Assembly (NCBI RefSeq): GCF_002994745.2
Contig: NC_037091.1
Span: 8,676,001 to 8,740,000 of the forward strand
DNA: 64,000 bases
Direction of reading: 5' to 3'
DNA from: Rosa chinensis
Taxonomy: Eukaryota; Streptophyta; Magnoliopsida; Rosales; Rosaceae
Shown here: one piece after another, positions 11,688 through 62,026 of the stretch
Layout of the letters: every line of letters begins with the position of its first letter
Position numbering within the stretch: the first letter of the stretch is position 1
Position numbers and translations under genes: made by a program
The notes under the pieces: generated by a model
Databases searched by the model: none
Told to the model about the DNA's origin: nothing
Seen by the model: only the letters and a program-made list of their open reading frames with translations

Positions 11688-12129
11688 TTTACATAAATGT
11701 CACTAGAGTACAAAGTCAACAATCATTCTCTCTCTCTTCTCCTGCGAGGTCTTCAGCTGACCTCCGACGAGTCTCCGACCAACTTCCAGCGAACTCTGGC
11801 AACCACAAAATCTATTGTCACTAACACCAAAAGCTACTATGGCTAGCAACAAAAGCTATTCTAATGAGATTTCCAGCAACCTCCGGCAATGTCACAACCT
11901 CCAACATATTTACATAAATGTCACTAGAGTACAAAGTCAACAATCATTCTCTCTCTCTTCTCCTGCGAGGTCTTCAGCTGACCTCCGACGAGTCTCCGAC
12001 CAACTTCCAGCGAACTCTGGCAACCACAAAATCTATTGTCACTAACACCAAAAGCTACTATGGCTAGCAACAAAAGCTATTCTAATGAGATTTCCGGCAA
12101 CCTCCGGCAATGTCATAAAAGCTACTGTC
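11688..12129 (+). repeat. 221-bp direct tandem duplication
   Basis: The block starting ACATATTTACATAAATGTC at 11688 is repeated from 11909 with very few differences. Both units include CTCTCTCTTCTCCTGCGAGG and GCTACTATGGCTAGCAACAA. Confidence 0.9.
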
Positions 12130-12900
12130 ACCAGCAAGAAAAACTACTATCACCAGCAAGAAAAACTACTGTCACTAGCAAGAAAAACTACTATGGTGAG
12201 ATTTCAGGCAACCTTTGGCAAGGTAACAAAAGCTACTATCACCAGTAACAAAAAGCTACACTGGTGATATTTTCGGTGGCTTCCGACGATGTCACAAAAG
12301 CTATTGTCACCAGTAACAAAAGCTACTCTGATGAGATTTCCGGCGACCTTCTGTGAGGTCACAAAAACTACTGTGACCAGCAACAAAAACTACTGTCACC
12401 AACACTAAAAGCTACTCCCATCAAACATTACTGTCACCAGCAACAAAATTTACTGTCACCAGCAACAAAAGTTACTGTCACTAGCAACAAAACCTGCTCT
12501 CACCAACACTAAGCTACTATCGCCAGCAACTATAAAGAAATTTCCAGCAAAGTCACAAAAGCTACTGTCACCAGCAACAAAATTTACTGTCACCAGCAAC
12601 AAAAGTTATTGTCACCAGCAACAAAAGTTACTGTCACTAGCAACAAAACCTGCTCTCACCAACACTAAGCTACTGTCGCCAGCAACAAAAGCTACTATCA
12701 CCATAAATAAAAACTACTGTCACCAACACCAAAAACTGCTTAACCATCACCAAAAGCTACTCTCACCGACACCAAAAGTTACTACTAAGCAAAAAAAAAA
12801 AAAATATTCCCAGAGATTGAGAAAACTATTACCATAGCCTAACAAAACTACTATCACTGACTGAGAAAGCTATTACCAACCAATACAAAAGCTACAATGA
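12110..12900 (+). repeat. Degenerate minisatellite, about 21-24 bp unit
   Basis: Many imperfect copies of CACCAGCAACAAAAGCTACT run head to tail, decaying toward the right. Confidence 0.85.
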
Positions 12901-14382: not shown

Positions 14383-15660
14383 ATGGCCTCGTGCGCCACC
14401 GCCTTCCTCTACAACCACGCCACCGCAATAACCTCACCTTACTCGCCTGGAAAGACTAAAACCACTGCAAGAAGCCTCCAGAGGCAGAGGAGCTCTCTCA
14501 GACCAACCACCATCACTGCCAAGCAGGACCAGAAGTCGGCATTGCAGTACCGGAAGCTCCTTGACTCGAACCCCGAAATTAGCGAAATCACTCTGGGCAC
14601 AATGACGTTTGGTGAGCAAAACTCGGAGAAAGAAGCTCACGAGATTCTCAGCTACGCTTTCGACAATGGGATCAACATTTTGGACACTGCCAAAGCTGTG
14701 AGTACTCTAAGGCTATGTTTGTTACGTGGGACTAGACTGAATTGGAGTAACTTATGTAATGAAATAAGAATCATCCCACGTTTGGCACACATGAGGACTC
14801 AATTAAATGAGATTAGAGAGTCCCCGCACCAGCTCCCGACCTTCTTACATAGAACCCCTAAATCTCACAGGACTGTGGAAGCAAGGGCTTCAACAACGCA
14901 TTAGTCTCTCCATCCCTTTCGCGCGCTTCAGCCTCGTCTCTCCACCTCTTTCACGCTTCAACCTCGTCTCTCCACTCTCGATCGCGCTTCATCCTTCTTG
15001 AACTTCCAGGTTCAATTTCTTTTCTCTATCATGCTCCTTTTGCTTTGATTCTGATTCCCTCTTCCCTTCGACCCCGTCTAGCTTCTTCTTCTCATGTATC
15101 TACTGTGATTTGTTAAATTAAAGACTATGGATTGATTTTCTATTAACAATGGTTTATGGGTTGTAACAATTGGTGTCTGGGTAGCTTGATTTGTTAAGAA
15201 TTGATCAATTTCAAGACTGAATTTTTTTTTTTCCTTTTAACAACGTCTGTGTTTTGATCTTCTTCTTTGGTTGGTTGTTTTCATTGATTTTTGATGTTGA
15301 TCAATTCTGGATTTTTTTTTCTTTTAACAACGTCTGTATTTTTATCTTATCCTTTGGTTGTTTTTTTCATTTATTTTGGATGTTGATCAATTTTGGATTT
15401 TTTTTTCTTTTAACAATGTCTGTATTTTGATCTTCTTCTTTGGTTGATTGTTTTCATTGATTTTGGATGTTGATCAATTATGAATTTTTTTTTTTTTAAC
15501 AACGTCTGTGTTTTTATCTTCTTTTCTGGTTGTTTGTTTAAATTGATTTTGGATGTTGATCAATTTTGGGTTTTTTTTCTTTTAACAACATCTGTGTTTT
15601 TATCTTCTTCTTTGGTTGGTTGTTTTCATTGATTTTGGATGTTACTGTGAAATCTTAGAT

Positions 15661-18661: not shown

Positions 18662-18972
18662 TATTAGGATTATATAGTTAATTAGTTTAGTTAGCTATTT
18701 AGTTAGCTAATTAGTTAGTTACTAATTAGGGTTAATTTGTTAACCTCGTCTTCTTAATTAGCTTTGTTAATTGTCCTAAGTCTGTTACTAGTTTGTTAGC
18801 TCAGCTTGTGTGATTGTTATGTGATGAGAGTTGGATGCTTGACACGTGTTCTTGTGCAAGTCATCTATAGGTTCAGCTCACTACTATAAATACCTGATGA
18901 CCTCTTGTACTTTTATCAGACTCTGAAATACATTTTGCTTCATTTTCTTGCTTCGTCTTCTTCTAGCTATCA
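18662..18972 (+). repeat. 5' LTR of the nested Copia element
   Basis: Contains a GACACGTGTT box (18841-18850) and a TATA-like CTATAAATA near 18884 upstream of the likely transcription start. It ends ...CTATCA at 18972. Confidence 0.95.
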
Positions 18973-18984
18973 TGGTACCAGAGC
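18973..18984 (+). promoter_or_regulatory. Primer-binding site of the nested Copia element
   Basis: TGGTACCAGAGC abuts the 5' LTR with no spacer. It matches the initiator tRNA-Met site TGGTATCAGAGC at 11 of 12 bases. Confidence 0.85.
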
Positions 18985-19419
18985 TCAGGCTGCGACCTTG
19001 GAGCACTTCAATTCTTCAAAGACTCGTATACAAATCTGCAAGATCTTCTACTATTCTACTTTGATTTCTGCTCTGCAACTCAGATAAGTCTTCATCATCT
19101 TCATCAACTTTGATTTGAGGTTGCTATTTGACTTGAAGAAGTTTATGTGATAATTGATTCTCACTACTTGAATCGAAGCTTTGGTTTTTGATTTTGATCT
19201 GTTTTGAGTTGGATTTACTCGAAAGAAGCATCAAGAATTGTCTAGTTCTTCAATCTTTTTGGCTCTCAAACCCTAGTTTACAGTCATAGCCTGCAAATCT
19301 GTTGAAATTGTGCCTTGATTTTCTGCTCTACTTAAGTTCTACAAGAAAATCTCTAGCTCAAATCCTAGATCTGCAATACTTGAAACCCTAGCAAATTCCA
19401 ACATAATCAACCTAGAATC

Positions 19420-21689
19420 ATGACTGCTTCCACACCTCAAAACTTGTCTCACACCACTCAAACCACAGTTTACCTTCCTAATATTCTACTCGATGAATCA
19501 AATTACCCTACCTGGTTGTTTAGGATGGAATCCTTCCTTCGTGGCCAAAATCTCTTTGGTTTTGTAGATGGCTCTACTCCTTGCCCTTCTTAGTATGTCC
19601 TTTCCACTGATGGCACCACAAGCACTACTTCAGCTGATTACATCACCTGGAAGACACAGGATCAAAGCATTGTTAATATGATTGGTCAAACTCTTAGTGC
19701 TGTTGCTATGAATTGTGCGGTTGGAAGCAAATCTGCTCAAGATTTATGGATCAGACTGAGGTTGAAATTTGCTGATGCAAATAAGCAAAACATTTTGCAA
19801 CTGAAATCTAATCTTCAGAATGTTAAGAAAGGATATGATGATATTGAGACATATCTTGATAAGATAAAAGCAGCTAAAGATGCCCTTGAAACTGTTGGTG
19901 TGATAATTGATGATGAAGACATTGTGGTGACTGTACTTAATGGTCTTCCCTCAGAGTTTGCAGCCATCAAAACTGTTATAAGAGCTCAATTCACTTGTTC
20001 TCCCTTGAGCCAATTAAAGACCTTACTTAAAGCTGCTGAAATGGACATTAGCAATGAAGTTCCTGGTATTCAAAGCCTACTTACTGCTATGTTAGCCAAC
20101 TGTAATTTCAATGCTCTCAACACTCAGGCTGCCTCCACATCTACTGCTAATTCATCATGCACCAATCCTTTACTCCCTACTTCACAGTCTCAAGCTCAAT
20201 TGCAGTCAACCTCACTCATACAACCTCAAGTTCAAACTTCTGTGCATAATCAAGTTGTGCAGCCTTCTACATATGTGCAAAATACTGTGCCTTCTACATC
20301 TGTGCAGCCTTCTGCTGCTACAAGCTATGCTACTCAAGGCATTCTCTCTCCTGCCCCAGCTGTTCCACCTGGCTTTTCAGTCTCTCACTTGCCTACCTAT
20401 CCAATCTCTGCTCAGAATTCCTATGTTTCAATCCCTGCCATGCCTTATGGCTTCACATCCACTCCATCTGTTCTTGTGTTCAACTCATCTCCTGCATTTG
20501 CTGGCTTCTATGCTGGCAGAGGAAATGGCAGACTCAACAACAATGGTGGAAGGGGCAATGGAAACAACTTTGGGAGAGGCAATCAGCAATATGGAGGCTT
20601 TAACAATCAAAATGGAGGATTCAGGAACATTGCTAACAATGGCAATTCTATTACATGTCAATGGTGCAACAAAGTAGGTCATAGTGCCAAAACATGCAGG
20701 TCTCTTCCCAATGCTCATCAAGGCAACAATGTGATCACTCAAGGTGGCTGTCAATATTGTGGAAAGCCTGGACACACTGCTGATAGATGCTATTTTATCA
20801 TTGGTTTTCCTGGACAGCAAAATGACTCTGAAGCTGACAATGTCAATGCCAATGCTACTGCAATGCTTGCTGCTACCAATCTTGCACCACAATACTGGTT
20901 TGCTGACACAGGAGCAACAAACCATATGACCAATAACCTGCAACTCCTCAACAACATCACTTCATATCCAACCAATGATGGGGTCCAGATTGGTAATGGT
21001 AAACAGCTCCATATCACACATTCTGGTGATGCAATGCTGGGATTACTTAAACTTAACAATGTTCTGTTAATTCCTGAACTTGCTGCACACTTACTTTCCA
21101 TTTATCAATTGTGCAAACAGAACAATTGCTCTGTTTGGTTTGATGAATTTATGTGTATCATACAGGACAAGGTGCAGGGCAAAATTTTATACCAGGGACT
21201 GAGTAAGCAAGGGTTATATCCTATCCATTTGATCTACCAAAAACTGCAGCAACTACTTCAGTTACTTCTCATTCTTCAACAGGTCTCAATAATCTTTAGT
21301 CACAGAATAAGGCTACATCTGCACCTCACCATTCAGCTTATATTGGTCAAAAAATCAAGCAGTCATTGTGGCATCAGAGACTTGGTCATCCCACCAATGA
21401 AGTGATAAAGGTCATGCTTGAGAAGTCTAGTATAGTACACTCATCTATTGAGAATGATAGTGCAGTATGTGAGTCATGTTTGTTAGGCAAATTTCACAAA
21501 CTCCCTTTTCCTAGTTCTCAGTCTAGATGTAGTTCACCCTTTGCACTTGTACACTCTGATGTTTGGGGCCCTGCCCCTCATCTATCTCTAGATGGCTACA
21601 AATACTTTGTATTGTTCATTGATGATTGTACAAGGTTCATTTGGATGTTTCCAATGAAAAATAAAAATGAAGTCTTGGGTTACTTCAAA
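19420..21689 (+). pseudogene. Copia gag - protease - integrase N-terminal region
   Basis: The likely start is ATG 19420 (MTASTPQNLSHTTQT). A TAG near 19591 interrupts the frame 57 codons in. From 19678 to about 21230 the frame is open and carries the gag core, two CCHC knuckles (CQWCNKVGHSAKTC and CQYCGKPGHTADRC) and the protease site WFADTGATNHMT. A frameshift in 21230-21360 moves the rest into another frame, where the GAG-pre-integrase LWHQRLGHPTNE, the zinc ligands CESCLLGKFHKLPF and the integrase start VLFIDDCTRFIWMF are read up to GYFK at 21689. The TAG could come from CAG by C-to-T change, an inference. Confidence 0.93.
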
Positions 21690-24353
21690 TGTAACGTCCC
21701 GTATCTTAATTTACCCGTTTACTAGTCATTTGGACTGTAAATGACAACTATTTTCACTTTTGCTATCGTTTCGGTACTTTTAGTGGCCCTAAAAGTTGAC
21801 TTTTTGTTCGGGTCAAAATTTGAGAAAATTTCCTTCATGAAAGTTGTAGAGGACGTTAAACCGAGCGCGTGCATATGTGGTACGTAAAAATCGGAGTTCG
21901 TATGTGAAAGTTATAAGTGAAAAGGTGAATTTACTGTTCATGGTAACTCTCTATATATAAGGAAACTTACCGAGGTAAGATCCCATTTCAGAACTTACCC
22001 TGACCCTCTCTCTCCCCTCTCCCTCTTCCCCGCGTCGCCCTCCCTTTTTCTTTTTCCGATTTCTTCACCGTCCGGCATCCGATTGATGTGATTCCAGTTG
22101 TCCTTGGACCGTCTCTTCCTCCTCTATACGATGGTATCAGTGGGTATCGGTGATTTGGCCGGAAAACCCCGAATTTATGCAATCATTTTTACTGTAGCAA
22201 TTTGCTTCTCTGGTGAAATTCTCCAGTTTTCGGCTATCTCCGATGGGAAAATTGGTTCTATTAGGAGCGCCTCAAGTCACTGATCATCTTCTCTCAAGAC
22301 TTCTAGCTGAAATTTCCACGTTTGGAAGGTGAATTTGAAGGATTTCCAAATTGGTGGGTTTGGAGATTTCCGGGTTTGTGTTCATCGGCAAAATTGGAGC
22401 ACTTCAAGGTATTTTCTCACTTGGTCACAGTTATGAAAAATGCTTAGAATGTTGAGATGATTATGTGGTTGAAATTTGGTGGCCGGAGGAGGAGTTGGCC
22501 GGCGCATGAACAGTGCCATGCGTGAACAGTGGTGGCGTTTAAACAGTAATTTAAATTCTATTTTTTTTAGCTAGTTAAATCCTATAAATTGTGTAGAGCT
22601 TGTATGTGAAGTTTGGTAATTTTTTGAGAAACTTGGAATTAATTATGAATTTTTGAAGTTTAGGGTTTCGATTATCGAATTACGAGAATCCGACCGTCGG
22701 ATATCTCTCGGTTCTGCCTTGGAACCTTTAAATTAACGAATTGGTATTAGTGGTATAATTTGGGCTGAATCCGAAGTGAATGGGAGATGTAATGGTGAGG
22801 AATTGATTTTAGGAATCGTATTAAATTGTTGAATAATTATTCACGGAGTATAATTGTGAACAGGATGAAGTACCGAGCTATTGCTCGATGACGGAACTCG
22901 AATGCGTGATCGTCGGAATAGTACTGTGAGTGGACTTTTGTTTTTAAATAATGATGCATGCATTTATTTCTTAAATTAATGCTCTAGTTATTAATCATAT
23001 TACATTTTGAGCAAATGAATTGATTTTCGGAATTTGATTTCAGTTTATCTCGTGGTTTTACTTTCAACAATGAGTTTCAAAGGTTGGTTATGATTTATAA
23101 TATTATTTGACGAATTACTTATTTCCGAGGTAATTTTCCGGAATTAAGTATATTTCTAATCGCCGATTTAAGTTCCTGGAAGATTTTCGAGATGATTTTC
23201 GATGGAGTTGGATTTCTCATTTATTTATTGACCTTCCGTTTTGGCATTGGGAATGCCTAATTAATGATTTTGGATTTGGTTTGTTTCTTGGAGATTTTGA
23301 GAGATTTTTGGAAATGGGATTTGCTTATACTAATTTCCGGTTTTGGTTACGGATTTGAGAATATTTTGGCGTGCGGGGTCACGTCATTGGAATATATGTT
23401 TTTCTTGTGAGAGATTGGGGAAGTCTTTCGGATTTTATGGATTTTGAATGTTTTCCTCACCATACTCGGGTCATTCGATTAGTGCTCCTCCTCACTTACT
23501 TTGTGTTTGTGAGTGGCAGTTGAGGTAGCTTATTCTCCTCCTCACTTACTTTGTGTTTGTGAGTGGTAGTCGAGATGATTTATTCTCCTCCTCACGTGAG
23601 TGGTAGTCGAGGTTATTAGTTCTCCTCCTCACACAATCTATGTGTGAGTGGCAGTTGAGGGTAGGTAGAGCCTAAGGGGCTCCTTTACCCGTATGGTGAC
23701 ATCTCTTCCCCATATCCTTTTATTTGTTACTTGACTAGCGGGGCTAGTACGATTCTTTTAGCAAGCGGGGTCTGGTATGTTTTTACGAGATTTCGAGTTT
23801 TAAAGACATACGTTTTATAATTGTTGCATGCATCGAAGTTTTACGAATTTAAATTCGTGGGGAAGTAATACAATTCCTTTTCCTTTAATTTATTTATTTA
23901 ATCGTTTATTTTGTCCACTCACTCTAACATGTTTTTCAATTACTTTCCCCTGGGCCCTTCGGTTTCAAATGCCCAGTTTGCAGGCGAAATTAGTGAGGTC
24001 GGGCGTACATTGGAGTTGAGGCATAGTCAACCACATGGCTTCCGCATTTTTATTTGATTTAGGTTTTCCTTGATTACCCTTGCTGTTAGAATTGCTCTGA
24101 TTACTTGAGGAAATTAAGGTTATTTAAGTTGTGATTTGTGTTATGTGATTTTTGGTTGATGTTGTAATTTGGGGAGCAGGGTGGCTCCAGGAGAATGAGG
24201 ATGGATGATTTAGAAGTGTAAATGTTTTCCTACAGGTTTTGGGTAGCCTACTTTTAGGGGAAGTTCCGCCAAATTTTTGATAGAATTTCTTCTAAGGTGG
24301 GCCCCGCAGGGCCACTTCGGATTTCGAGGTGAAATCCGGGGCGGGTCCTGTTA
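21690..24353 (+). mobile_element. Solo LTR (2.66 kb), probably Ty3/Gypsy, nested in Copia integrase
   Basis: It begins TGTAACGTCCCG and ends GGTCCTGTTA, with TSD TCAAA at 21685-21689 and 24354-24358. Excising it plus one TSD rejoins the Copia integrase frame (GYFK to SLCAIVQ). It has a TATA box (CTCTATATATAAGG near 21950), a CT-rich 5' leader and no coding capacity, so it looks like one LTR left by recombination. Long LTRs beginning TGTAACG are common in chromovirus-type Gypsy elements; the lineage is a guess. A roughly 60-bp direct repeat (TCCTCCTCACTTACTTTGTG) occurs three to four times at 23480-23660. The terminal dinucleotides are TG...TA, another non-canonical end. Confidence 0.85.
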
Positions 24354-24358
24354 TCAAA

Positions 24359-27106
24359 TCTCTGTGTGCAATTGTGCAAACTCAGTTCAATACTTCAGTA
24401 AAAGCTCTAAGAAGTGATGGTGGTGGTGAATACACAAGTAATCAGTTCAAGGGATTCCTAGCACATTCAGGTATCATCCATCAAATATCTTGCCCTTACA
24501 CTCCAGAACAAAATGGCATAGCAGAAAGGAAAAATAGACACATTAGAGAAACTGCAGTCACACTTCTTCAGCATGCATCTCTTCCCAACCATTTTTGGTT
24601 TCATGCTTGTGCTACTGCTGCCTTCTTGATCAACAGGATGCCTACATCTGTTCTTCTTATGAAATCCCCTTATGAAGTGTTGTATCAGTCTGTGCCTAAT
24701 GTTGCTATGCTTCGAGTGTTTGGCTGCTCCTGCTATCCACTTATGGCCCCTTATAGATCAAACAAACTTCAACCTAAGATTGTCAGATGTGTGTTCATTG
24801 GTTTTGCAGCAGGATATAAAGGCTATATTTGTTACAGTCCATCTCTTAAAAAATATATAATTTCAAGGCATGTGTTCTTTGAAGAAAACTCTTTCCCTTA
24901 TGCTGGTTGTAACACTAAAGTTCTGCATCAGAAAAATGGGATTGACTCGGTATTTGATCAGTTCAGTTCACCTCATGCTCAAGCACCCAAAACTGTTCCA
25001 GTAGATACTTGCTTGACTCAAAATCAGTCTCACACTCAGCACGTTATGCCTACACCTGTTCTCTCTTCTTCACCATCATCTCCACATGTTCATACAGGTG
25101 ATCATCCTTCTAATTCTCTACATATTATTGAACCAACCTGTCACAATGAGATTTCTGAGTCTCCTGTTGTTAGTGCTGCATGTGACTTTGTTGACAATGA
25201 TCCTGATGTTATTCTCTCATCACCATCTAATGCTAATTCTTCTTCACACAATGCATTTGAACCTCTGGCTGATACTTGCATTCGATTTGCTGAAACTGAT
25301 GGAGTTATATCTGTGTCTGCTGAACCTGGTAATGGTCACATTTCTATGATTCTCAACTGTGACTCCAACTATAATCCCTCGGCTCAAGTATCTGAATCTA
25401 ATATTCTTCATCCTGTTGATGGCATCACACCCTCTGTAAGTAATTCTCATTCTATGCTCACTCGAAGTAAGAGAGGGATCCAAAAGAAGAAATGTTTTAC
25501 AGCTCTTCTTACACATCTCAGTCTAGACCCCAGTGCTACTGAGCCTTCCAATTACAAAGAGGCACTTAAAATTCCTGAGTGGAAACATGCTATGGATGAA
25601 GAGTATAATGCACTTATGCAGCAGAATACTTGGTCTCTTGTTCCATTACCTGCCAACAAAAACCTTGTTTCTTGCAAATGGCTCTTCAAAGTTAAAAGAA
25701 ATGCTGATGGCTCCATTGCTAGACATAAAGCCAGACTTGTAGCTCGAGGGTTTAGTCAGGAATATGGAGTAGATTATGATGAAACATTCTCACTTGTGGT
25801 TAGACACACTACTGTAAGACTTATTCTCTGTCTTGCTGCTCATCATGCATGGAATCTTCATCAAATGGATGTCAAGAATGCATTCTTACATGGATTGTTG
25901 AGTGAAGAAGTCTACATGACTCAACCTGGTGGTTTTGTTGATCCTTCTGCTCCCAGGCTTGTCTGCAAGCTACATAAGTCTCTCTATGGCCTGAATCAAG
26001 CTCCTAGGGCCTGGAATGAAAGGTTCACCAATTTTTTACCTGCTATTGGCTTCTCTACTTCATATGCTGACCCAAGTCTCTTTGTCAAACAGTGTCACAC
26101 AGACTATGTGTTTCTTCTACTATATGTAGATGACATTATCATCACTGGTAATTGTGAATCTCTTATCACTTCAACTAAACTTGCCCTTCAGAGTGAGTTT
26201 GATATGAAAGATTTGGGCAAACTACATTTCTTTCTTGGACTGGAGATTGAGTATCTGCCAAATGGTTTGTTTGTTACACAACAGAAATATGCCCGAGATT
26301 TGTTGCATAAGTCTGGTCTAGGTGACTGTCATTCTCATTCTACACCTTGCAAGTCAGGTCTTAAACTTTTGAAGGATGTTGGTATTCCCTTACAGTCATA
26401 TGATATTACTCAGTTTAGAAGTTTGGTTGGCTGTCTTCAGTATCTTACCTTCACAAGGCCAGATATCACTTATGCTGTTAATTCAGTTTGTCAGTTCTTG
26501 CATTGTCCTACTGATGTTCATCTTCATGCTGCCAGAAGGATACTTCATTATGTTAAGAACACCATGCATCAAGGCATATATTTTAGGAGGGGTTCTCCCA
26601 ACAGTAGCTTGCCTTATCTTCGAGCCTTTTGTGATGCAGATTGGGCTGGTGACCCCAATGATAGGAAATCCACCACTGGGTTTGTTCTTTTGTTTCATGA
26701 TGCCCCAATCTCCTGGTGTAGCAAAAAGCAGACTGCTGTGTCTCGTTCTTCCACTGAAGCAGAATACCGGAGTATGGCAGATACAACTTCTGAGATTTTG
26801 TGGCTCTTACATCTCTTTCGTGATCTTCATGTCACTTTGGCTGATGTCCCAATTCTTCACTGTGATAATATCTCTGCTCTTGCATTGGCTACCAATCCAG
26901 TCTATCACTCTAAACTCAAGCATATTGAAGTAGATGTTCACTTCACCAGAAATCAGGTCAAGGCTGGCTCTCTCAAGCTTCAGTTTGTCACTTCCAAAGA
27001 TCAACTGGCTGATCTATTCACTAAAGGCCTTTGCTCACCTCAACACTCATACTTATGCTCCAGCTTGATGCTACTTCCTCCCTATCAAGCTGAGGAGGGG
27101 TATTAG
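24359..27106 (+). pseudogene. Copia integrase C-terminal - RT - RNase H region
   Basis: One open frame of over 900 codons runs from the integrase catalytic region to the 3' LTR. It contains ALRSDGGGEYTSNQF and ENGIAERKNRHI (integrase), LVARGFSQEYGVDYDETFSL, MDVKNAFLHG, SLYGLNQAPRAW and the catalytic YVDDIIITG (RT), then CDADWAGDPNDRKSTTGF and SRSSTEAEYRSMA (RNase H). The frame stops at TAG 27104-27106, inside the LTR start. The motifs look intact, so this half may still be sound protein code. It is cut off from gag by the solo LTR. Confidence 0.95.
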
Positions 27107-27411
27107 GATTATATAGTTAATTAGTTTAGTTAGCTATTTAGTTAGCTAATTAGTTAGTTACTAATTAGGGTTAATTTGTTAACCTCGTCTTCTTAATTAG
27201 CTTTGTTAATTGTCCTAAGTCTGTTACTAGTTTGTTAGCTCAGCTTGTGTGATTGTTATGTGATGAGAGTTGGATGCTTGACACGTGTTCTTGTGCAAGT
27301 CATCTATAGGTTCAGCTCACTACTATAAATACCTGATGACCTCTTGTACTTTTATCAGACTCTGAAATACATTTTGCTTCATTTTCTTGCTTCGTCTTCT
27401 TCTAGCTATCA
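27101..27411 (+). repeat. 3' LTR of the nested Copia element
   Basis: By eye it is identical to the 5' LTR over 311 bases. It follows the polypurine tract GCTGAGGAGGGG. Confidence 0.95.
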
Positions 27412-33369: not shown

Positions 33370-34761
33370 TAGGCCTGACATTTAAACCCGTAACCCGCAA
33401 ACCCGCACTATACCCGCACGCTAAAAACCCGCACATACCCGCCCGTTTATTAATCCGGGCTAAAAAAAGCCCACACTCAAAAAACCCGCAAATTAACGGG
33501 TTTTGCAGGCCAAATCCATTGGAACCCGTTAACTAAAAATCCTTCCCAAAAACCCATACGGGTTCCTTTTTTTTCTTTTTTTCAACCAAGGCATTTTTAT
33601 AATTTTTCTTATTCCCCATGAGGATCCGACAGTTAGATCTTCGTACAATTGTGAAAAGACTATTCAAAAGGAGATCCGTGAGGATTCGACCGTTGGATCG
33701 TCATATAATTTTGTGAGGATGATTCTAAAGGCGATCTGGGACGATCCAACCGTTGGATCTTCGTATAATTGTGCAAAGATGATTCAAAAGGCGATCCATG
33801 AGGATCCGACTGTTGGATCGTCATATAATTTTGTGAGAATGATTCTAAGGGTGATCCGGGATGATCCAACCGTTGGATCTTCGTACAATTTTGGGAGGAA
33901 GAATCTAAGGGCGATCCGTGAGGATCTGACCGTTGGATCATAGTATAAATCGGTAAAGATGATCATCTAGGTGATCCGTGAGGATCTGACCGTTGGATCG
34001 TCGTATAATTTTGAGATGATGAACCTAAGGGCGATCCGTGAGGATCTGACCGTTGAATTATCGTATAAATCGTTAAGATGATCATCTAGGTGATCCGTGA
34101 TGATTCAACCGTTGGATCTTCGTATAATTTTGAGAGGATGAACCTAAGGGCAATCCGTGAGGATCTGACCGTTGGATCATCATATAAATCGGTAAAGATG
34201 ATCTTCTAGGTGATCTGACCGTTGGATCTTCGTATAATTTTGAGAGTATGAACCTAAGGGCGATCCGTGAGGATCTGACCGTTGGATCATCGTATAAATC
34301 AGTAAAGATGATCTTCTCAGTGATCCGACCGTTGGATCATCGTATAAATCGGTAAAGATGATCCTCTAGGTGATCTGTGAGGGTCCGACCTTTGGATCGT
34401 CGTATAATTGTGATTTGTGAATTATTTTTTGTCAAAAAAGGAAAGGAAAAAAAATCTAAAAAGTTAGAAAATAAAAAAATTTAAAATAGAAAACCAAAAA
34501 AGTTCATATAGAGAAAATGGCAAATGAGGGGGATATATATAAGTCTTAATTGATTTTAATTGCTTTGATAAAAAGTTAAAAAAAAATTAAAAAAAATGTT
34601 TACGGGTTTTAACGGGTTCCAATGGAAAACCCGCAAACCCGCCGGGTTTGGCCCGTGAAACCCGTTAAGCTAACGGGTTCTTACCGGGTCGGCCCGTTAA
34701 AAACCCGACCCTTTAAGAACCCGCACCGTACCCGCACTATACCCGCACGTTGCCAGGCCTA
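33370..34761 (+). mobile_element. Non-autonomous hAT element in the DUF4283 gene
   Basis: The ends are TAGGCCTGACA and, in reverse complement, TAGGCCTGGCA. An 8-bp TSD GTCGCGGG is at 33362-33369 and 34762-34769, as for hAT. Subterminal parts are dense in ACCCGCAAACCCG-like repeats on both sides, in opposite orientation. The middle is a minisatellite. No transposase. Confidence 0.92.
33610..34420 (+). repeat. Minisatellite inside the hAT element
   Basis: More than ten copies of a unit with GATCCGTGAGGATCTGACCG and TTGGATCGTCGTATAATT, about 60 bp long. Alternating subtypes (GTATAATTTTGAGAGGATGA against GTATAAATCGGTAAAGATGA) form a higher-order pattern in the right half. Confidence 0.9.
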
Positions 34762-36450: not shown

Positions 36451-37020
36451 ACTTGGTCATCAGGACTTGATGATCTCTACCGAAGCTTTCAAGTCTTGAG
36501 TTGAACGCCCATTCAGTCCAATAGCCTCTTGAGCAAGCTGTTTAAGGATTCCACTTCTCTGTCTCATTTTTTTTCCTTGTTCAAGCGATAAAACTTGTTC
36601 CAATGCCTTGACTGCTCTAGTTTTTGTCAAAACGCCTCCCTCAATCCTCACACCGATCTTCCATACAACTTCTACACTCCGCATATTTAAATTTAGGTCA
36701 ACAAAGTAAGGCCTCCCAATCATAGGCCGCAATGTGTTACATGCACTCCTACCGAGGCATGATTGAGGATTTGCTCTTGGTTCACCCATGGAATTAATTA
36801 ACTACTTTTCCTATGGATAACATGTTGGTTCTTTCGATAAATTCTTGTGGAAGTCCTCTTGATTTCCCCTAAATGACCAAAGAAAGGGGAACCCACCTTC
36901 CTCTAATGCCTCAGCTAATGCTGCTACCTCCATGGGAGGCAGTGCCCCCAGACTTCCAAAGCTAATGTATGCTACTGACGCAGGCTCGTTGTTGTCCAGC
37001 CACTATAAGCATGCATCATG

Positions 37021-37330
37021 TGTTATGAAATTAGGCCTAAATGAGTATTACTAGGAGAGGTCATTCAGTTGTCGTGTGCTTGGCACGTGTGTTAGTTAAT
37101 CAGTCGTTAAGTGTGTTAGTTAAGGTTAAGCAGTTAAATAGCTATTCTGTTATTGCAGCCAATACGTGGAGGACACGTGTCCGTGGTAGTTGGCTCATCT
37201 TGAGCTATATAAACCCCAGCCTGTATTTCTCTATCAATCAATCAATATATCGAGTTATTTCCTTTCTTCTTGTTTAATTCTCTTAGTTTTTCTCTGCAAT
37301 CTTACCATGGTTGGGGCTCCTACCCTAACA
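37021..37330 (+). repeat. 5' LTR of the gene-carrying retrotransposon
   Basis: Contains the 12-base palindrome GGACACGTGTCC (37171-37182) with a CACGTG core, and the TATA box GCTATATAAACC near 37204. Confidence 0.95.
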
Positions 37331-37332
37331 AC

Positions 37333-37344
37333 TGGTATCAGAGC
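37333..37344 (+). promoter_or_regulatory. Primer-binding site, initiator tRNA-Met
   Basis: TGGTATCAGAGC, a 12 of 12 match, two bases after the 5' LTR. Confidence 0.95.
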
Positions 37345-37351
37345 CCACATC

Positions 37352-40300
37352 ATGGGGCCGAGGAGCACTGGGAATCCACCACCATACTCGTTAGCACCGC
37401 CGCGTCCACCTGACCTCGATGAAGTGAGGAGGAAGAGGATCCAAATCGCAAAAGAACAAGTAGCGGAAAGGACAGCTGCGTGGCGCCGTGAACTCGAGAA
37501 AACCATGGCGTCGTTATGATCCGAGATAATCAACGAGTTGAGGCAATTTCAATTGGAGCGACCAGCTCAGGTGAGTGAGCCTTCGGGGCTGACTTCTTCC
37601 GTTCCGATCCTATATCAACACCAGCCTCCTCCTCTGCCCGACGGCGCAATTTCGACTCAGCAGAATAATTCCCCTGCATCGTTTTTCTCTGTAAGTGGCA
37701 CTAACACAAGTGTTTCTAATCACAAGGATGATTGTGGTGGTATGGGTTTTGTGTTTAGTGCTAATGATATTGATGAGAAATTAGAGAATGGGGAGAGTGT
37801 CGAGAAGAGGGCTGAGGCGACTAGTGGAGATGGTAGAGGGTTCAGTGAGCTTGAGTGTGTCATTGCTAAGTGGGACGAGGGTGGTATAGTTGAAGGCAAG
37901 GAGCAGCTCATCAATGGAATGTTAGAATTTCATGCCCTCCAACTGTTCGATAAAATGCCGAACTCAGAAGGGTTGTGTGATGCAAGAAGGACCGGGTTGT
38001 GTAATGCAGGAAGGGCCATTATGGCTCCTATGAGCATTCGAGACAAAGGGGGAGGACTCGCTACTCATTGTGAAGTTGTTGATGCTTCTGACTATTTAGG
38101 CTATCCCAAAGCACGTTCCGAGGTCTATTATACTATCCACCTTGCTGCTGTCAGTGAGATAGCAATATGTTTTGTCAGTTGTAAGCAGGACAATAGTGGT
38201 TTCATTGAAGATAAGGAGCTGGAGCAGAGTTTTTTTGGACACACCAGTGGCATTGCTTCAGTAAGCTTTGATTCTTCAGAGGTCTTAGTAGCTGCAGGCG
38301 CTGCAAGTGGTACAATTAAGCTTTGGGATTTAGAGGAGGCAAAAATTGTTTACACCCTTACTGGTCACAGATCTAATTATATATCTGTCGACTTCCATCC
38401 TTTTGGAGAGTTATTTGCATCTGGCTCCCTGGACACAAATTTAAAAATATGGGATATCAGGAAGAAGGGGTGTATTCACACATACAAAGGCCACACACGA
38501 AGAGTCAATGCCATCAGGTTTACCCCAGATGGACGTTGGGCTGTTTCTGGTGGAGAGGACAACACTGTGAAGTTGTGGGATCTGACTGATGGAAAGCTCT
38601 TGCATGATTTTAAATGTAATGAGGGCCAGATACAATGCATAGGCTTTCATCCCCATGAGTTCCTGCTCACAACAGGTTCAGCAGATGGGACAAATAAATT
38701 TTGGGATCTTGAAACCTTTGAGCTAATTGGCTCAGCTGGACCTGAGACAACTGGAGTGTGCTTTTTGACTTTTAGTCCGGATGGGAGGGCTCTACTATGT
38801 GGTTTGCCCATCATGAAGATTATATTTAAGAGTTTCTGCAAGCCTGGTTTGGTGCTTGGAGACTTTGAGCTGATTCATGAAGAAGACCACATGCTTGGAG
38901 ATCATGAGCAAAGTGCAGTTGTGACTCACTATTCCCAGTTGTGCCAAAAGGCTGGCGTTAAGTATAAAAGTTGTGATGGTGATCTTGTTGGTGTTGTGGA
39001 GGATTCACATTTTTATTATTGGAAGAAAGATCAGAGTAGTTTTGCGAAAGGGCACGTGTGGGCTCTATATGATGATGATGGAAGGCTGAGAAATTATGGT
39101 TTGGTTGATGCAGTTGTTGACTTTCTCAAAAGCAATTCAAAGTTATATTTTATGAGGTACACTTCTAATGCACTTCTTTCAAAAGATAATTGTGTCGGCT
39201 TTTTGACTAATATGCACAAGCTTTTTCAACACATGGTGGGACATGTTCATAAGGATGAGCTTTTCATGGCAACGTGCTCTTCCATTTTTCATCCTCCATT
39301 CCATGCACTTGTGAAGAAATTGTCTCTCTTTTTACCTATGGTTGCTATCCAGTCATTACGACCACTTTTGGCTGACATATTGAGAGAAGATGCACAGTTT
39401 ATTTTTGGAATTATGAGGGTTGTGCACATCATTTTTCAAGATGGATGGTTGTTGATTCATGAACAAGAGTGAGGTCTTGCCAAGAGCACTATAATTGCAG
39501 GGTATTCTCAAGCAGGTTATGTGGAAAAAGCTTTTGAGTATTTGTGGTGGATGAGAATGGATGTACCAAACCCAAATGAGTATGCTTTTACTCGTGTACC
39601 AAGTGTTTGTGGAACCATGGCGATGCTTGCTCAAGGAAAGCAATTGCATGCTCATGTGCTAACTGTTGTTCTAGATTGTGAAGCTATGGTACAAAGTGCC
39701 TTGGTCAATTTGCACTTGAAATGTGGAAGTTCACAAGAAGCTGCAAAAATCTTTGATGTGACAAAAGTTGATGATCACCTATTTGACTTATACAGAATTT
39801 TCATTGAGCCTCTGATTGCTTGCTACTTGAGATACATAGATAAGCAGCTCAGCCATGGAAGATATGAAGATGGTCATGCTATAGTTTCATCTACCATCAT
39901 GAATAAAGAAAAATTTATGTTTGTGACTATTGACAAATTATGCACTGCTTTAGTTTTTAAGTGTTGTCCAATTGGTATAGTGGAGGTATCAGAGAAGTGG
40001 CTTCTAGATGTGATGAATATGAATTTGGAGACCATGGTTGGAAAAATTAAATGTGGTGGGGAAAAGAGGCTGCATATGGATTTCTTTAAAATTCATAGGG
40101 GGCCACTTGAGAAATGTTTGGGGTATGCTCTAGCTACTTTGGATGCGATTTGTTTATGTGTCCAGAAGCTTTTCTTGGTTGATTGGGCTTTTGCAGATGT
40201 ACCAATATCTTGGAAGGATGTGGAAACCAAGTTGTTTGCTCTTTACTTCCCTAACTTCATGATTGCATTCATCGAATTTGGCTTCGTGGCAATTGATGTT

Positions 40301-41275
40301 AGAGTTCTTGCATTGGTTCCTCAAATACACTTTTCAGTACACATGTGGACAAATGAAGCTCTTCTACTCGTCCTGTTGTCTGCAATTATGCACTCCCAAA
40401 CAATGAAATTTGTAATTTCAAGCATTCTATTGCAGAGTCCCAATAGAGAAGCCTTGAGGTTTTTTTCTAATATGCAACATTTATATCATTGGCAATCAAA
40501 TTTTAATTCTCAGGTGTGTGTTCATCTATGTGCACTACTCCATGCTTGGCAAGTTACTACAGATGATGGATACTTGCAATTGGATGATAAATTGGGTTGT
40601 GATCTTATGACTATGGATAATGAGACCGAGATGGTTCTGTATACTGGATGTCAGACTCCACATAACTGTTGGTCAATAACATATGAGAGCAGGAAAAGCA
40701 ATAACAATATCAGTGGCAAGACTTGCTCTGTCTCTCTAGTGTCCAATTCATTGAATTTGTATTTAACAATATTGCTGCCATATGGAATTTTTGAGGTGGG
40801 AGAAGATTCTGTAAGTGGTATTTTTTGCTCGCAATTGTTGCTGGACTTGGTAAGAAAAATGTTGCAGATTTGGACATGGGAAAATGGCAGATTTTTGCAG
40901 ACTCAGATGATTGTTGAGGCAAGGGATTTTCAAAAAAGAACAATGTGTTGTCATCAACTGGTCTATAGCTCTTCAAGTTTCAAAGGATATGTGGTACTGA
41001 CATCAGCCATCTTGCATAGAAGATTTGCAATGAATGGAGCAGCAGCAACAACAATTTTACATTTGTACTGGAACTGGTTTCACTTCTTTGCTGGAGTGCC
41101 TGGTGGTATACATTTAAACTATGACTGGAAAGAGAGCTTCCCTGATGTTCCAACTGGGAGATTTGATCAGTTCAAAGCATTGGTGAGAGGTATCCAGATT
41201 TTGACTCAGAATGTGAAACTTGAGGACAAGTTTCTGTTAAGGGGGCTGCATTGTTATGAAATTAGGCCTAAATGA
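37352..41275 (+). CDS. Chimeric polyprotein frame: gag-like head, katanin p80 WD40, PPR, unknown parts
   Basis: From ATG 37352 one frame runs 1308 codons into the 3' LTR, broken only by TGA at 37517-37519 and 39470-39472. The head (to about 37690) is Pro/Arg-rich with RRKRIQIAKEQVAERTAAWR and may be gag-derived. About 38234-38830 is katanin p80 (KTN80) WD40: VLVAAGAASGTIKLWDLEEA, FASGSLDTNLKIWDIRKKG, AVSGGEDNTVKLWDL, HPHEFLLTTGSADGTNKFWD. No introns interrupt it, so it came from spliced RNA. About 39489-39770 is a PPR piece: STIIAGYSQAGYVEKAFEYL, then GKQLHAHVL. The remaining parts (38830-39470 and 39780-41250) I do not recognise. Whether any protein is made is unknown. Confidence 0.75.
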
Positions 41276-41561
41276 GTATTACTAGGAGAGGTCATTCAGT
41301 TGTCGTGTGCTTGGCACTTGTGTTAGTTAATCAGTCGTTAAGTGTGTTAGTTAAGGTTAAGCAGTTAAATAGCTATTCTGTTATTGCAGCCAATACGTGG
41401 AGGACACGTGTCCGTGGTAGTTGGCTCATCTTGAGCTATATAAACCCCAGCCTGTATTTCTCTATCAATCAATCAATATATCGAGTTATTTCCTTTCTTC
41501 TTGTTTAATTCTCTTAGTTTTTCTCTGCAATCTTACCATGGTTGGGGCTCCTACCCTAACA
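41252..41561 (+). repeat. 3' LTR of the gene-carrying retrotransposon
   Basis: 309 of 310 bases equal the 5' LTR by eye. It keeps the GGACACGTGTCC palindrome (41402-41413). Confidence 0.95.
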
Positions 41562-42602
41562 TCCTGCTCCTGCTCCTGATCCTCATCATCTGATACAAAT
41601 AATTGTAGTGGCCGGACAAGATGTAGTGGACCAACAAGGATAAACTTTTGGAGTCTTTTCTTCAGTTCCTCAGTAACTTTCAAGTCCTTTGTTTCAAAAG
41701 AGTTGACGACAACCGCAGCTGCTTGTGGCAGCTTCTATCCCATTTTATGCAACATTCTTGCAAATGGAGATTCTATTTCTCCAAATACAATCTCCTTGGG
41801 TAAGTCAGATGCTCGAAACCCATCTGAGAATCCCGGAAGGAACTCCAGGGTTTTGTTTTCTTGTCCTATGTACGTACAGAATAGCAAAACACACGAGTGA
41901 AAACTGTTCTACATATTTATTGATGTATTTAGACATCAGCAAAGGGGAAAAAAAAATAAAAAAACACAAAACATCCTTACCAGGAGCTCCCACTTCATCT
42001 CTAATTATATCAGTCTCGATATGAACAAAAAGTGAGCGTATTTCACCAATCCATGAGGTCACCCAAGGGACGTGCATTTTATCGGCTATATCTCTAGCAA
42101 ACCAGAATAATGCATCCGAAATCAAGCATCCAAACTAATTGTGTCCTGTTTCAGCCTCCACCTCTTTGATTGCCCTCTCAAAGATCCGAGGTGCATTGTC
42201 AATGAACAACTCAACGTGCTCCCGTAGTGGATTTCTGGAGAGGGGTATATATGTAGCCATCTGGTAAGCCATCCCATACGTTGTAAGGCTTTATATTATC
42301 ACAGCCCTTGTTGCTGGAACCTGAAAAGAGGGAGCTATTTGATCTAGCACCTTCGTTTGCCTCGACTTTTCTTTCGCTACCCATTTCGGGCCTAGCTTCT
42401 TTTGTCTTTTGTTTTGTTGTTTTTTATCCTTGTATTGACTCTTGACTGTGCTCTTGTATGTTGAAGAAGGTGAACTGCATATCGGGGAAACAGTTGAAAT
42501 GGAACGTTCAAATCGAAGAAGAGCGGCAGGATGGGAGGTGAATGGAAATACGTAGGACTGCAACATTTTGAGGACTATAGTAGTAGCAACTTTGTGGCTC
42601 AT

Positions 42603-58003: not shown

Positions 58004-59584
58004 GGTGAGTACACTGACCAAAATTCGCAATGTTTACAAGTTTGTATGACTACATTTGTCACCTGATTTCTGATTCTATGTTATTTGTATTTCCGAATTA
58101 ATATGGTGCAAGTCTTAAATTGGGACTAACGAACATTTAGAATCGGAGGTGTCTACAAATTTTTTTTTACTTTACCATTCATATGCTTGGCTGCAGATTA
58201 CTCTATCATTTATATACATGACTGGAGATTATTCTTACCATTTGTATGATTGACTAGACATTACTATTTTCTATAGGAATTTGAGTCCCCTAGGAAGGAC
58301 CTGTTTTCTTTTCTTCTTTGGGAAAATGATCATTTACTCAATTTTGGGGTTAATTAACCTCACTTACCCAAACACTCTAAGAGATTACCCACTTACCCAA
58401 ACACTTTAAGAGATCATTTCCCTAATATCCAATTAAGTATTTTTTTATTCTTTTTTATTTATTTTTGGGACAATTTTGCCCTCTCCTTCTTTGTCACTTA
58501 GAGAGAGAGGTCATCGAAGACCTTGCCGAACTCTAGTGACCAATGGCCGGTCGCAGACTCCGGTGACCGAAATCTGGCAACCGGTCACCGGAATCCCGAA
58601 TCCGGCTACCGGACCAGTGACTGTGGGTGTGGTCAATAAATTTGACCCTGCAATCAAGGCAATTAAAGAGAAGTAATGGCAACAGTAAATGCAACGGTTA
58701 ATGTAGCTGTAAATGCGACGATAAATGCAACATTCAGTATGGCAATCATGGCCGCCAATAAGTGACTGTTATTGCAGGAGTGAATATGGCCTTAATGGTG
58801 GTGTGCCGCTCAAGTCACTGCGACTTGCTGTGCAAGTTTACTTGCAGCCCACGCCGAAGTACACCTATAAATAGGCTGCTCGACAGCGAGGTAAATCATC
58901 GAATTCCAATTCTCTCTACTCCACTACTAAGAAACGTACTGACTTAGGCATCGGAGAGTTTTCTGCATGTACCCCCCCTCCTCCTCGAGCCGACGGTCAA
59001 ATTTCAGGTCAACGTTCGAAGGAAGCTTCTCGATTGTTCCCGATCAGCTCCCGCTCCAGTCCGCATTAATTGTTCGGTCAAACTCCTCTACGGAATTTTT
59101 CACCTCCAACAAGTGGCTCTCCAGTCATGAAGGAATATTTGAGAAGCCGCCCCCCCCCCCCCCCCCCCAACCAGAGGCTAGCCCCCCCCCCAACCAGAGG
59201 CTAGTGACGAGGATGAGGGAGGTCGATATTGCCCGCTCCACGAGGCACGAGGACATGGCAAATATAAGTGTCAGGGAGTGCGACCTGCAATCCTTACAGC
59301 AATGAAGACTGGTAAACTCCTTCAGTATACAATGACATAAATTAAGGCAATCAGAGGGTTCATGGAAAAGTCCACGTGCCGAAATTCATCTCGAGTATTA
59401 GAGAAGGTACGATACTATGGTGACTTCGTTTTGATAAAAGTGACTTTGTTTTTATAAAAGATGGCACAACCCGTAAAACTCAGGTAAGAAAAATAAAAGA
59501 GTTTAATTGATTTTTGTGCGTGTTGATATCTCATTCGAGAGACTATTGAAATTATGTATTTTGTATTTCTCGCGTGAATAATAT

Positions 59585-60690: not shown

Positions 60691-62026
60691 AAGTCACAGA
60701 ATGTTAGGTGACTAAGAAGGGAAAAGAGGAAGAGTTTCACAACAGGGTACCTCAGGCTCAGAGTCTGGTTTGAACTGCACTGGGGGCATGGCTTAGGAAC
60801 GAGGTAGCTCAGTGGGGGTAGCGAACGCAGGCGAGACTAGAAACTAAGCTTTGGTGCTAGTGGCGAGGCACCGGAGACTCCACAAGGAGACAAGTCCGCG
60901 ACGCGGAGACTTGACACTAGAATGGCTGCAAGACAAAGGCAGATTTGACTCCTGATTTTGGCACGTTGGCGTCGGCGTCGTCGACGAGATGAGATGCCGA
61001 CTCTAAACAAAGAACGAGGATCTTCTTATATGGGTCTCTACATCTTCAACATGAGGAAGGCCTAGATGAAATTCAAAGAAGGATGCCCAAAGAGAAGTAT
61101 AAAGATGTGGAGCCCATAGAGAAATTTGAGCTTTGGAAATTTTCTCTTGGGATGAATTCCCAAGGAGAAAATTTGGCGGCATTGTGGGGGTGGTCAATAA
61201 ATTTGACCCTGCAATCAAGGCAATTAAAGAGATGTAATGGCAACAGTAAATGCAACGGTTAATGTAGCTGTAAACGAGACGATAAATGCGACATTCAGTA
61301 TGGCAATCATGGCCACCAATAAGTGACGGTTATTGCAGGAGTGAATATGGCCTTAATGGTGGTGTGCCGCTCAAGTCACTGCGACTTGTTGTGCAAGTTT
61401 ACTTGCAGCCCACGCCGAAGTACACCTATAAATAGGCTGCTCGACAGCGAGGTAAATCATCGAATTCCAATTCTCTCTACTCCACTACTAAGAAACCTAC
61501 TGACTTAGGCATCGGAGAGTTTTCTGCATGTACCCCCCTCCTCGAGCCGACGGTCAAACTTCAAGTCAACGCTCGAAGGAAGCTTCTCGATTGTTCCCGG
61601 TCAACTGCCGCTCCAGTCCGCATTAATTGTTAGGTCAAACTCCTCTACGGAATTTTTCACCTCCAACAGTGACCAGATTCCGGCGGCCTATTTTATTGCC
61701 CCTAATAATACCCAGTAATCATATTATTGCCCCCAGTAGAAACATTATTGCCCCCCAGTAATATGATTATTGCCCCCAATAGAAACATTATTGGCCTCTA
61801 ATAATATAATTATTACCCCCAGTAATATGATTGTTGCCCGCAGTAGAAACATTATTGCCCCTCAATAATGTTATTATTGCCAAGTCAATTTTGAAAAGTT
61901 TGCTGGGCAAGTCAAAAAATTACCAAACCAAGCATGTAACAAGTATACAACAATACAACAATATATCAATCGGTCTGATGCCAACTCATTAAAAAGTTCA
62001 TCAAAACAAACAATGGAAAAAAAAAA

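Follow-up and report, generated by a model that had tools for sequence, protein, structure and literature searches.

A chimeric LTR element with one long frame

The window analysed here, 64,000 nucleotides of Rosa chinensis contig NC_037091.1 (positions 8,676,001 to 8,740,000 of the forward strand), carries a long terminal repeat (LTR) element of 4,541 bp at 37021-41561. This element, hereafter copy A (the window copy, locus L041), lies on the forward strand between two 310-bp LTRs (37021-37330 and 41252-41561) that differ by a single mismatch, and its interior is spanned by one long reading frame in which pieces of several host genes are fused. A primer-binding site, TGGTATCAGAGCC, follows the 5' LTR at 37333-37345 and presumably pairs with initiator-Met tRNA, while a purine-rich tract (41239-41245) ends the 3' tail (40928-41251). 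Across the genome searched (515 Mb in 53 contigs), this tail is matched in whole or in part 37 times and the LTR 26 times. The 5-bp flanks, TCATG at 37016-37020 and TCCTG at 41562-41566, form an imperfect target duplication in which one of the five bases differs; by eye, duplications of GGCTT and CAGGC accompany copies B and C of the same family. Copy A thus combines two LTRs, a primer site, a purine tract and a short, imperfect target duplication, as LTR retrotransposons do. When it is excised together with one 5-bp repeat, the two sides join into an exon that by eye is UDP-glycosyltransferase (UGT)-like and reads on the reverse strand on both sides of the insertion (36811-37002 and about 41570-41734). 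The restored reading has an in-frame TAG in the flank.

The frame read from 37352 meets stops at 37517, 39470 and 41273 only, the last of them inside the 3' LTR. Two TGA codons are therefore all that interrupt it between the primer site and the 3' LTR, with open runs of 650 and 600 codons; at the position of the second (39470-39472) a sense codon stands in the relatives P0001 and P0003. By comparison, 1,000 dinucleotide-shuffled versions of the interior all had at least 39 stops in the best of six frames and no open run above 255 codons, and the five remaining frames of the real interior hold 52-108 stops each. No pol domain of the Pfam collection was matched in the long frame, and in these scans copy A showed no gag-pol with the reverse transcriptase, integrase and chromodomain that mark an autonomous Ty3 chromodomain element. 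A preliminary description made from the letters alone had proposed a recently inserted LTR element with a primer site and no pol, a single frame broken by two TGA codons, an intron-free katanin block, an in-frame PPR piece and fusions kept in frame beyond chance. Each of these points was borne out, the recency by LTRs identical at 309 of 310 positions.

The frame opens with a gag-derived leader common to the family (37352-37613, interior positions 22-283), in which the first TGA lies, followed by a second shared module (37770-38225, interior 440-895). Next comes the katanin p80 WD40 piece (38228-38806), which corresponds to residues 237-429 of the second open stretch and is 91.7% identical over 193 residues to katanin p80 of Rosa sericea. 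The host katanin gene (C4:67062285-67063093) gives three exon matches (expectation value E of at most 1e-12) with two gaps of about 168 bp between them, whereas the piece in copy A is continuous. Since exons separated by introns in the host are contiguous in the element, the piece came from spliced RNA; intron loss is demonstrated for this piece only.

Downstream, a DUF3444-like piece (38799-39156, interior 1469-1826) matches its family weakly (E 0.0003, below the Pfam cut-off) but recurs in family loci L050 and L051 at 92-94% identity, and the L050 version exceeds that cut-off. Then follow a piece common to the annotated rose proteins P0026 and P0027 (39101-39421) and the PPR piece (39485-39775), whose donor was At3g47840-like: it is 77% identical to an At3g47840-like protein of Rosa rugosa and 78% identical to a donor-like open frame of 708 codons at C2:12733110, at a synonymous divergence (Ks) of 0.25 and a nonsynonymous divergence (Ka) of 0.11. 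The remaining pieces are one common to R. sericea P0010 (39770-40051), one common to P0027 (40238-40570) and a kinase-protein-like piece of 45 residues (40628-40762), 60% identical to the unnamed protein P0025 (PF01453, PF00069, PF07714), which we take to be a lectin receptor kinase. A possible likeness of the 39770-40051 piece to SIN3 found no support in Pfam. When 10 sub-pieces of the frame were searched against Pfam, eight returned nothing up to E 10 and a ninth only a match at E 0.15. Ten of the 21 open reading frames (ORFs) in other frames within 37000-41800, some of them outside the element, had no Pfam match at E 0.01, and a PDB search with one piece returned no hit.

A rose family with shared leader and differing cargo

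Leader DNA gives at least 41 matches at 35 or more places in the genome (counted by hand; seven of the 35 are without a defined locus), which rules out copy A as a lone chimera. Loci of the family were collected by DNA similarity and not by reading frame. Within the 1.6-1.9 kb that begin at the leader, 23 of 27 loci have a longest sense open run beyond that of every one of 50 shuffles (the misses are L054, L064, L065 and L069), and none of the 27 has such an antisense run; this count drops L061, L062 and L070, which are second matches of places already counted.

Cargo varies among these loci. Pfam identifies an ABC transporter in L042 (PDR type), L043 and L049, an NT-C2 domain in J, L044 and L045, a subtilase in L061 (at the place of L056), DUF3444 in L050, a copia gag in L052, a weak U-box in L073, WD40 in B and PPR in J and C. 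At E 0.001 no match was found in the scanned stretches of L048, L051, L053, L058/L070, L059, L060, L063, L066, L067 and L068, nor at E 0.01 in L072 and one of the two stretches of L073. These calls are biased, since the scan took long open frames and may have passed over short host pieces lying out of frame. Among annotated relatives there are also U-box, thioredoxin, HSP90, 3'-5' exonuclease, OTU, methyltransferase, armadillo and GH81 pieces, a list biased in turn by gene models favouring open frames. Pieces also recur patchwise: besides the DUF3444-like piece of copy A, three pieces of J are found in the second half of the L051 element (L072) at 88-91% identity. Among the 120 of 451 matches listed, the proteins sharing element pieces beyond single host domains are from Rosa chinensis or Rosa sericea.

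LTR-to-LTR readings cover ten copies of the leader type. Copy J has no stop in 1,236 codons (LTRs 97.5% identical), L042 none in 1,028 codons from the leader ATG (LTRs 295/295) and L051 none in about 1,184 codons (LTRs 201/204). In L042, the frame passes through half a PDR transporter, then a weak match to the SH3 domain of integrase ends (SH3_Tf2-1) and then a chromodomain; this chimera is colinear with R. sericea P0145 over 1,028 residues, gap-free and 95-98% identical. The L042 frame stops 31 nt short of the 3' LTR match and that of L051 28 nt short of it. Other copies are less intact: L056 has three stops and one frame slip (LTRs 98.3%), copy B (LTRs 96.2%) four stops, of which the last follow a slip, and copy F is open for 518 codons with stops thereafter. 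Frames of C (LTRs 97.8%), D (93.2%) and G (94.7%) are broken at several spots. Copy F belongs to a tandem LTR-interior-LTR-interior array (L032:579-3601). Outside these ten, copy E is nested and 18 kb long. The preliminary description had reckoned that unrelated interiors with many stops in other copies would speak against its view. Interiors do differ, and C, D and G are broken as that would have it, yet the frames of J, L042 and L051 run through without a stop. Together with the shuffles of the interior and the excess of sense runs, these open copies led us to reject chance openness.

The cis-acting parts of the family point to its likely origin. Copies L, M and N share positions 216-310 of the LTR with copy A at 82-85% identity, and copy M contains three stretches matching gag, reverse transcriptase, integrase, SH3_Tf2-1 and chromodomain families, in broken frames. 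The leader of J aligns to the gag start of copy L with a score of 80 (best of 500 shuffles, 47) and to that of copy H with only 49 (shuffles reach 46), and by eye a tail box before the purine tract is common to the copy A family and the L/M/N type. On this sequence evidence, copy A belongs to a rose family of non-autonomous LTR retrotransposons that descends from a chromodomain Ty3 element. Because leader, primer site, LTR end and tail are alike, the helper is probably the chromodomain element represented by copies L, M and N. A degenerate element bearing reverse transcriptase (L034:826-5026) has an LTR resembling positions 95-310 of that of copy A.

Openness of the frame and protein constraint

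Relative to J, 17 of the 20 offsets in the spacing between shared blocks, seen in 13 copies, are multiples of three; the offsets are not independent because of common descent, and distinct spacing increments, counted by hand, give 12 of 14. Stop codons were then mapped on a tree of 17 copies from the 27 loci, over the 352 codon columns of the leader and module (L041, L046, L047, L055 and L057 entered as A, J, B, F and G; L054, L059, L060 and L063-L069 left out). The 15 stop cells fall in 13 columns and every stop is private to a single branch tip; the two columns with two stops pair non-sisters, A with G and L044 with L058. Under neutrality, inner branches should carry 14.6 stops and terminal branches 21.5. 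Parsimony places one gain on inner and 14 on terminal branches in the true frame, compared with 19/38, 22/18, 16/27, 14/23 and 5/16 in the other five. Even the sole inner gain is an artefact, as its stop is seen in L048 alone and was placed inward because neighbouring copies have gaps there. Inner gains number 0-3 in the true frame and 3-27 in the others over 30 bootstrap trees, and the contrast persists after dropping G, L052 and L058, or dropping L043.

These counts bear on the alternative that no selection acts and the pieces are open as fresh copies of coding exons, joined in frame by luck or survivorship. Several pieces are indeed recognisable coding sequence, copy A already has two stops and C, D and G are broken. 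Nevertheless, loci gathered by DNA similarity show sense runs beyond all shuffles at 23 of 27 and antisense runs at none, offsets are mostly in phase and the part tested has no clade-shared stop where some 12-15 are expected, all of which makes this explanation improbable.

Constraint on the encoded protein is another matter. Ka/Ks was computed by the Nei-Gojobori method, with no rate model, and shifted-frame controls cover the A-B pair, five cargo-set comparisons and the pooled leader, proline-rich and module parts. The C-D pair was discarded as it had been read in a frame with 54 stops. Ka/Ks is 0.53 in the leader (shifted frames 0.78 and 0.79), 0.69 in the proline-rich part (0.80 and 0.76) and 0.89 in the module (0.59 and 0.90). 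Over whole shared blocks the A-B pair gives 0.82 (0.56-1.18; shifted frames 0.63 and 0.61), with uncontrolled values of 0.84 for A-J, 0.85 for B-J, 1.11 for A-E, 0.98 for A-F, 1.08 for A-G, 0.79 for J-F and 0.86 for J-G. Cargo values are 1.06 for L042-L049, 0.83 for L042-L043, 0.55 for J-L045 and 0.47 for J-L044, with shifted frames at 0.34-0.90. Constraint on the captured parts is thus undetectable by this measure, since their values are not lower than in shifted frames. To judge from the sequences, openness looks to have been kept and the leader to be moderately constrained, while amino-acid change in the captured parts looks nearly free. That the chimera of copy A was itself maintained as a protein, as the preliminary description suggested, finds no support in these values: the signal is one of openness across differently composed copies.

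A protein serving the element might still account for part of the pattern, its gag-like N-terminus joining helper particles and the fused parts acting as filler or targeting aid. The resemblance of the J leader to the gag start of copy L (less so copy H), the leader ratio of 0.53 and the in-frame chromodomain and weak SH3_Tf2-1 matches of L042 and P0145 would fit such a role. The ratios in the module and cargo, set beside their controls, do not, and the frames scanned in A, J and L051 gave no chromodomain match; we regard this account as unlikely. Far less credible still is a host-gene account, in which selection on the plant maintains the annotated WD40-like proteins P0001 and P0002 as products of functional rose genes. 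True, P0001 of Rosa chinensis is matched by the product of copy B at every one of 895 residues, and the gene model P0002 sits on copy A or an equivalent of it. Both, however, lie between LTRs, the P0002 model omits stretches of the frame, including that around the second stop, and the A-B ratio is not below its shifted frames; on this comparison and the cargo ratios we rejected a host gene under protein selection.

A proposed reading-frame filter and its precedents

The reading that we favour, with a probability of about 0.6, is that the family depends on a helper, shuffles genes and passes through a filter for openness, exerted probably by RNA decay or translation. The data suggest that continued transposition depended on the element remaining translatable, the sequence encoded mattering little. 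Copies would move in trans on the helper, whose reverse transcriptase would probably switch templates in mixed particles and so take up host pieces; the same route could re-sort pieces between copies. To propagate, the RNA would need one open frame from the gag-like start to near the 3' LTR, a requirement that has statistical support in the leader and module and whole-copy openness in J, L042 and L051 (3 of the 10 copies). Plants degrade RNAs with long 3' untranslated regions (UTRs) by nonsense-mediated decay, according to the available part of PMC3711448. The likeliest reason for the filter is that an early stop would leave kilobases of 3' UTR and expose the RNA to this decay, or would uncouple translation from packaging. 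With the frames of L042 and L051 ending 28-31 nt before the 3' LTR match, decay would be the simplest filter; packaging coupled to translation predicts the same pattern. Captured sequence would then be almost free to vary. A broader version, an exon-shuffling machine with a reading-frame sieve in which any mixture of host mRNAs propagates provided that one open frame reaches the 3' LTR, seems to us somewhat short of an even bet.

Several observations weigh against this filter. Three of the 20 offsets are out of phase (two in G, one in L058), the Fisher test of inner versus terminal gains against the pooled controls reaches only P 0.012, and one control frame (antisense 2) had only five inner gains. 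The stop test covers the leader and module, not the cargo. As its columns follow J, picked as an open copy, stops on the ancestral branches of J are impossible; these amount to about one-fifth of the inner length, so the 14.6 expected stops fall to about 12. Some of the openness may simply reflect selection on the protein, given the moderate constraint on the leader. Copy A is young, its LTRs one base apart, yet has two stops where 0.24-0.29 are expected since insertion (P about 0.025 at 0.24); LTR divergence predicts 2.7-3.2 in B and 1.7-2.1 in J. The frame of copy C is broken at several spots despite LTRs 97.8% identical. Finally, a sense orientation of captured sequences is usual in LTR elements, judging from the part of PMC7264820 available.

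Host pieces in LTR elements are often dead fragments. The closest known precedent for the rose family appears to be maize Bs1, an LTR element in which three host-gene segments form a chimeric gene that is transcribed and translated (PMC13317346, available in part). Copy A likewise holds pieces of several host genes captured in one frame, intron-free as shown for katanin. Unlike Bs1 as portrayed in that portion of the paper, the rose family occupies 35 places, its cargo differs and is re-sorted behind a shared gag-like leader, and the 17 copies tested have no clade-shared stop. Genes captured by LTR elements of rice and sorghum also lie between LTRs, those of rice being mostly under non-purifying selection; the accessible portion of that account (PMC3726574) proceeds gene by gene and describes no family-wide open frame over patchwork cargo of the rose kind.

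The rose elements can also be set beside two other classes of derivative, large retrotransposon derivatives (LARDs) and terminal-repeat retrotransposons in miniature (TRIMs). TRIMs resemble them in being non-autonomous and, as is probable for the rose elements, moved in trans. Interiors of LARDs and TRIMs typically have no long coding frame, and copy A, J, L042 and L051 have long ones. LARDs are likewise non-autonomous and moved in trans, with trapped DNA replacing the coding sequence between the LTRs, but the available text of PMC6431247 calls the trapped fragments not necessarily coding, whereas the rose interior is a long open frame running from a gag-like leader. Pack-MULEs and gene-carrying Helitrons form families carrying shuffled gene fragments too (PMC13317346 and PMC6431247, in the parts available); they are DNA elements, whereas the rose carrier is an LTR element whose katanin piece came from spliced RNA. 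Among titles and opening lines of abstracts, in a search outside of which most subscription papers fell, we found no such rose family and no openness without protein constraint; the terms "captur" and "non-autonomous" are absent from the rose genome paper (PMC6786968).

Such a family would separate selection for translatability from selection for the product, which are normally tangled, and it lets nonsense-mediated decay or translation-coupled packaging be put to the test as a filter of retrotransposon RNA. It also shows a route to new chimeric genes; the sieve, if true, would supply a stream of long, novel chimeric proteins in a living plant genus. Rose protein catalogues carry such copies as WD40-like family or ABC transporter proteins, names to be taken with caution.

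Elsewhere in the window, a young LTR element at 18662-27411 has 311-bp repeats (18662-18972 and 27101-27411) that are 100% identical and holds ORFs of 603 and 936 codons, the longer being copia pol-like by eye. Tandem arrays occur at 12025-12797 (periods of about 22-111 bp), 15186-15643 (86 bp) and 33616-34407 (units of about 60 and 120 bp), and a direct repeat of 490 bp lies at 58622-59111 and 61183-61668 with 96% identity.

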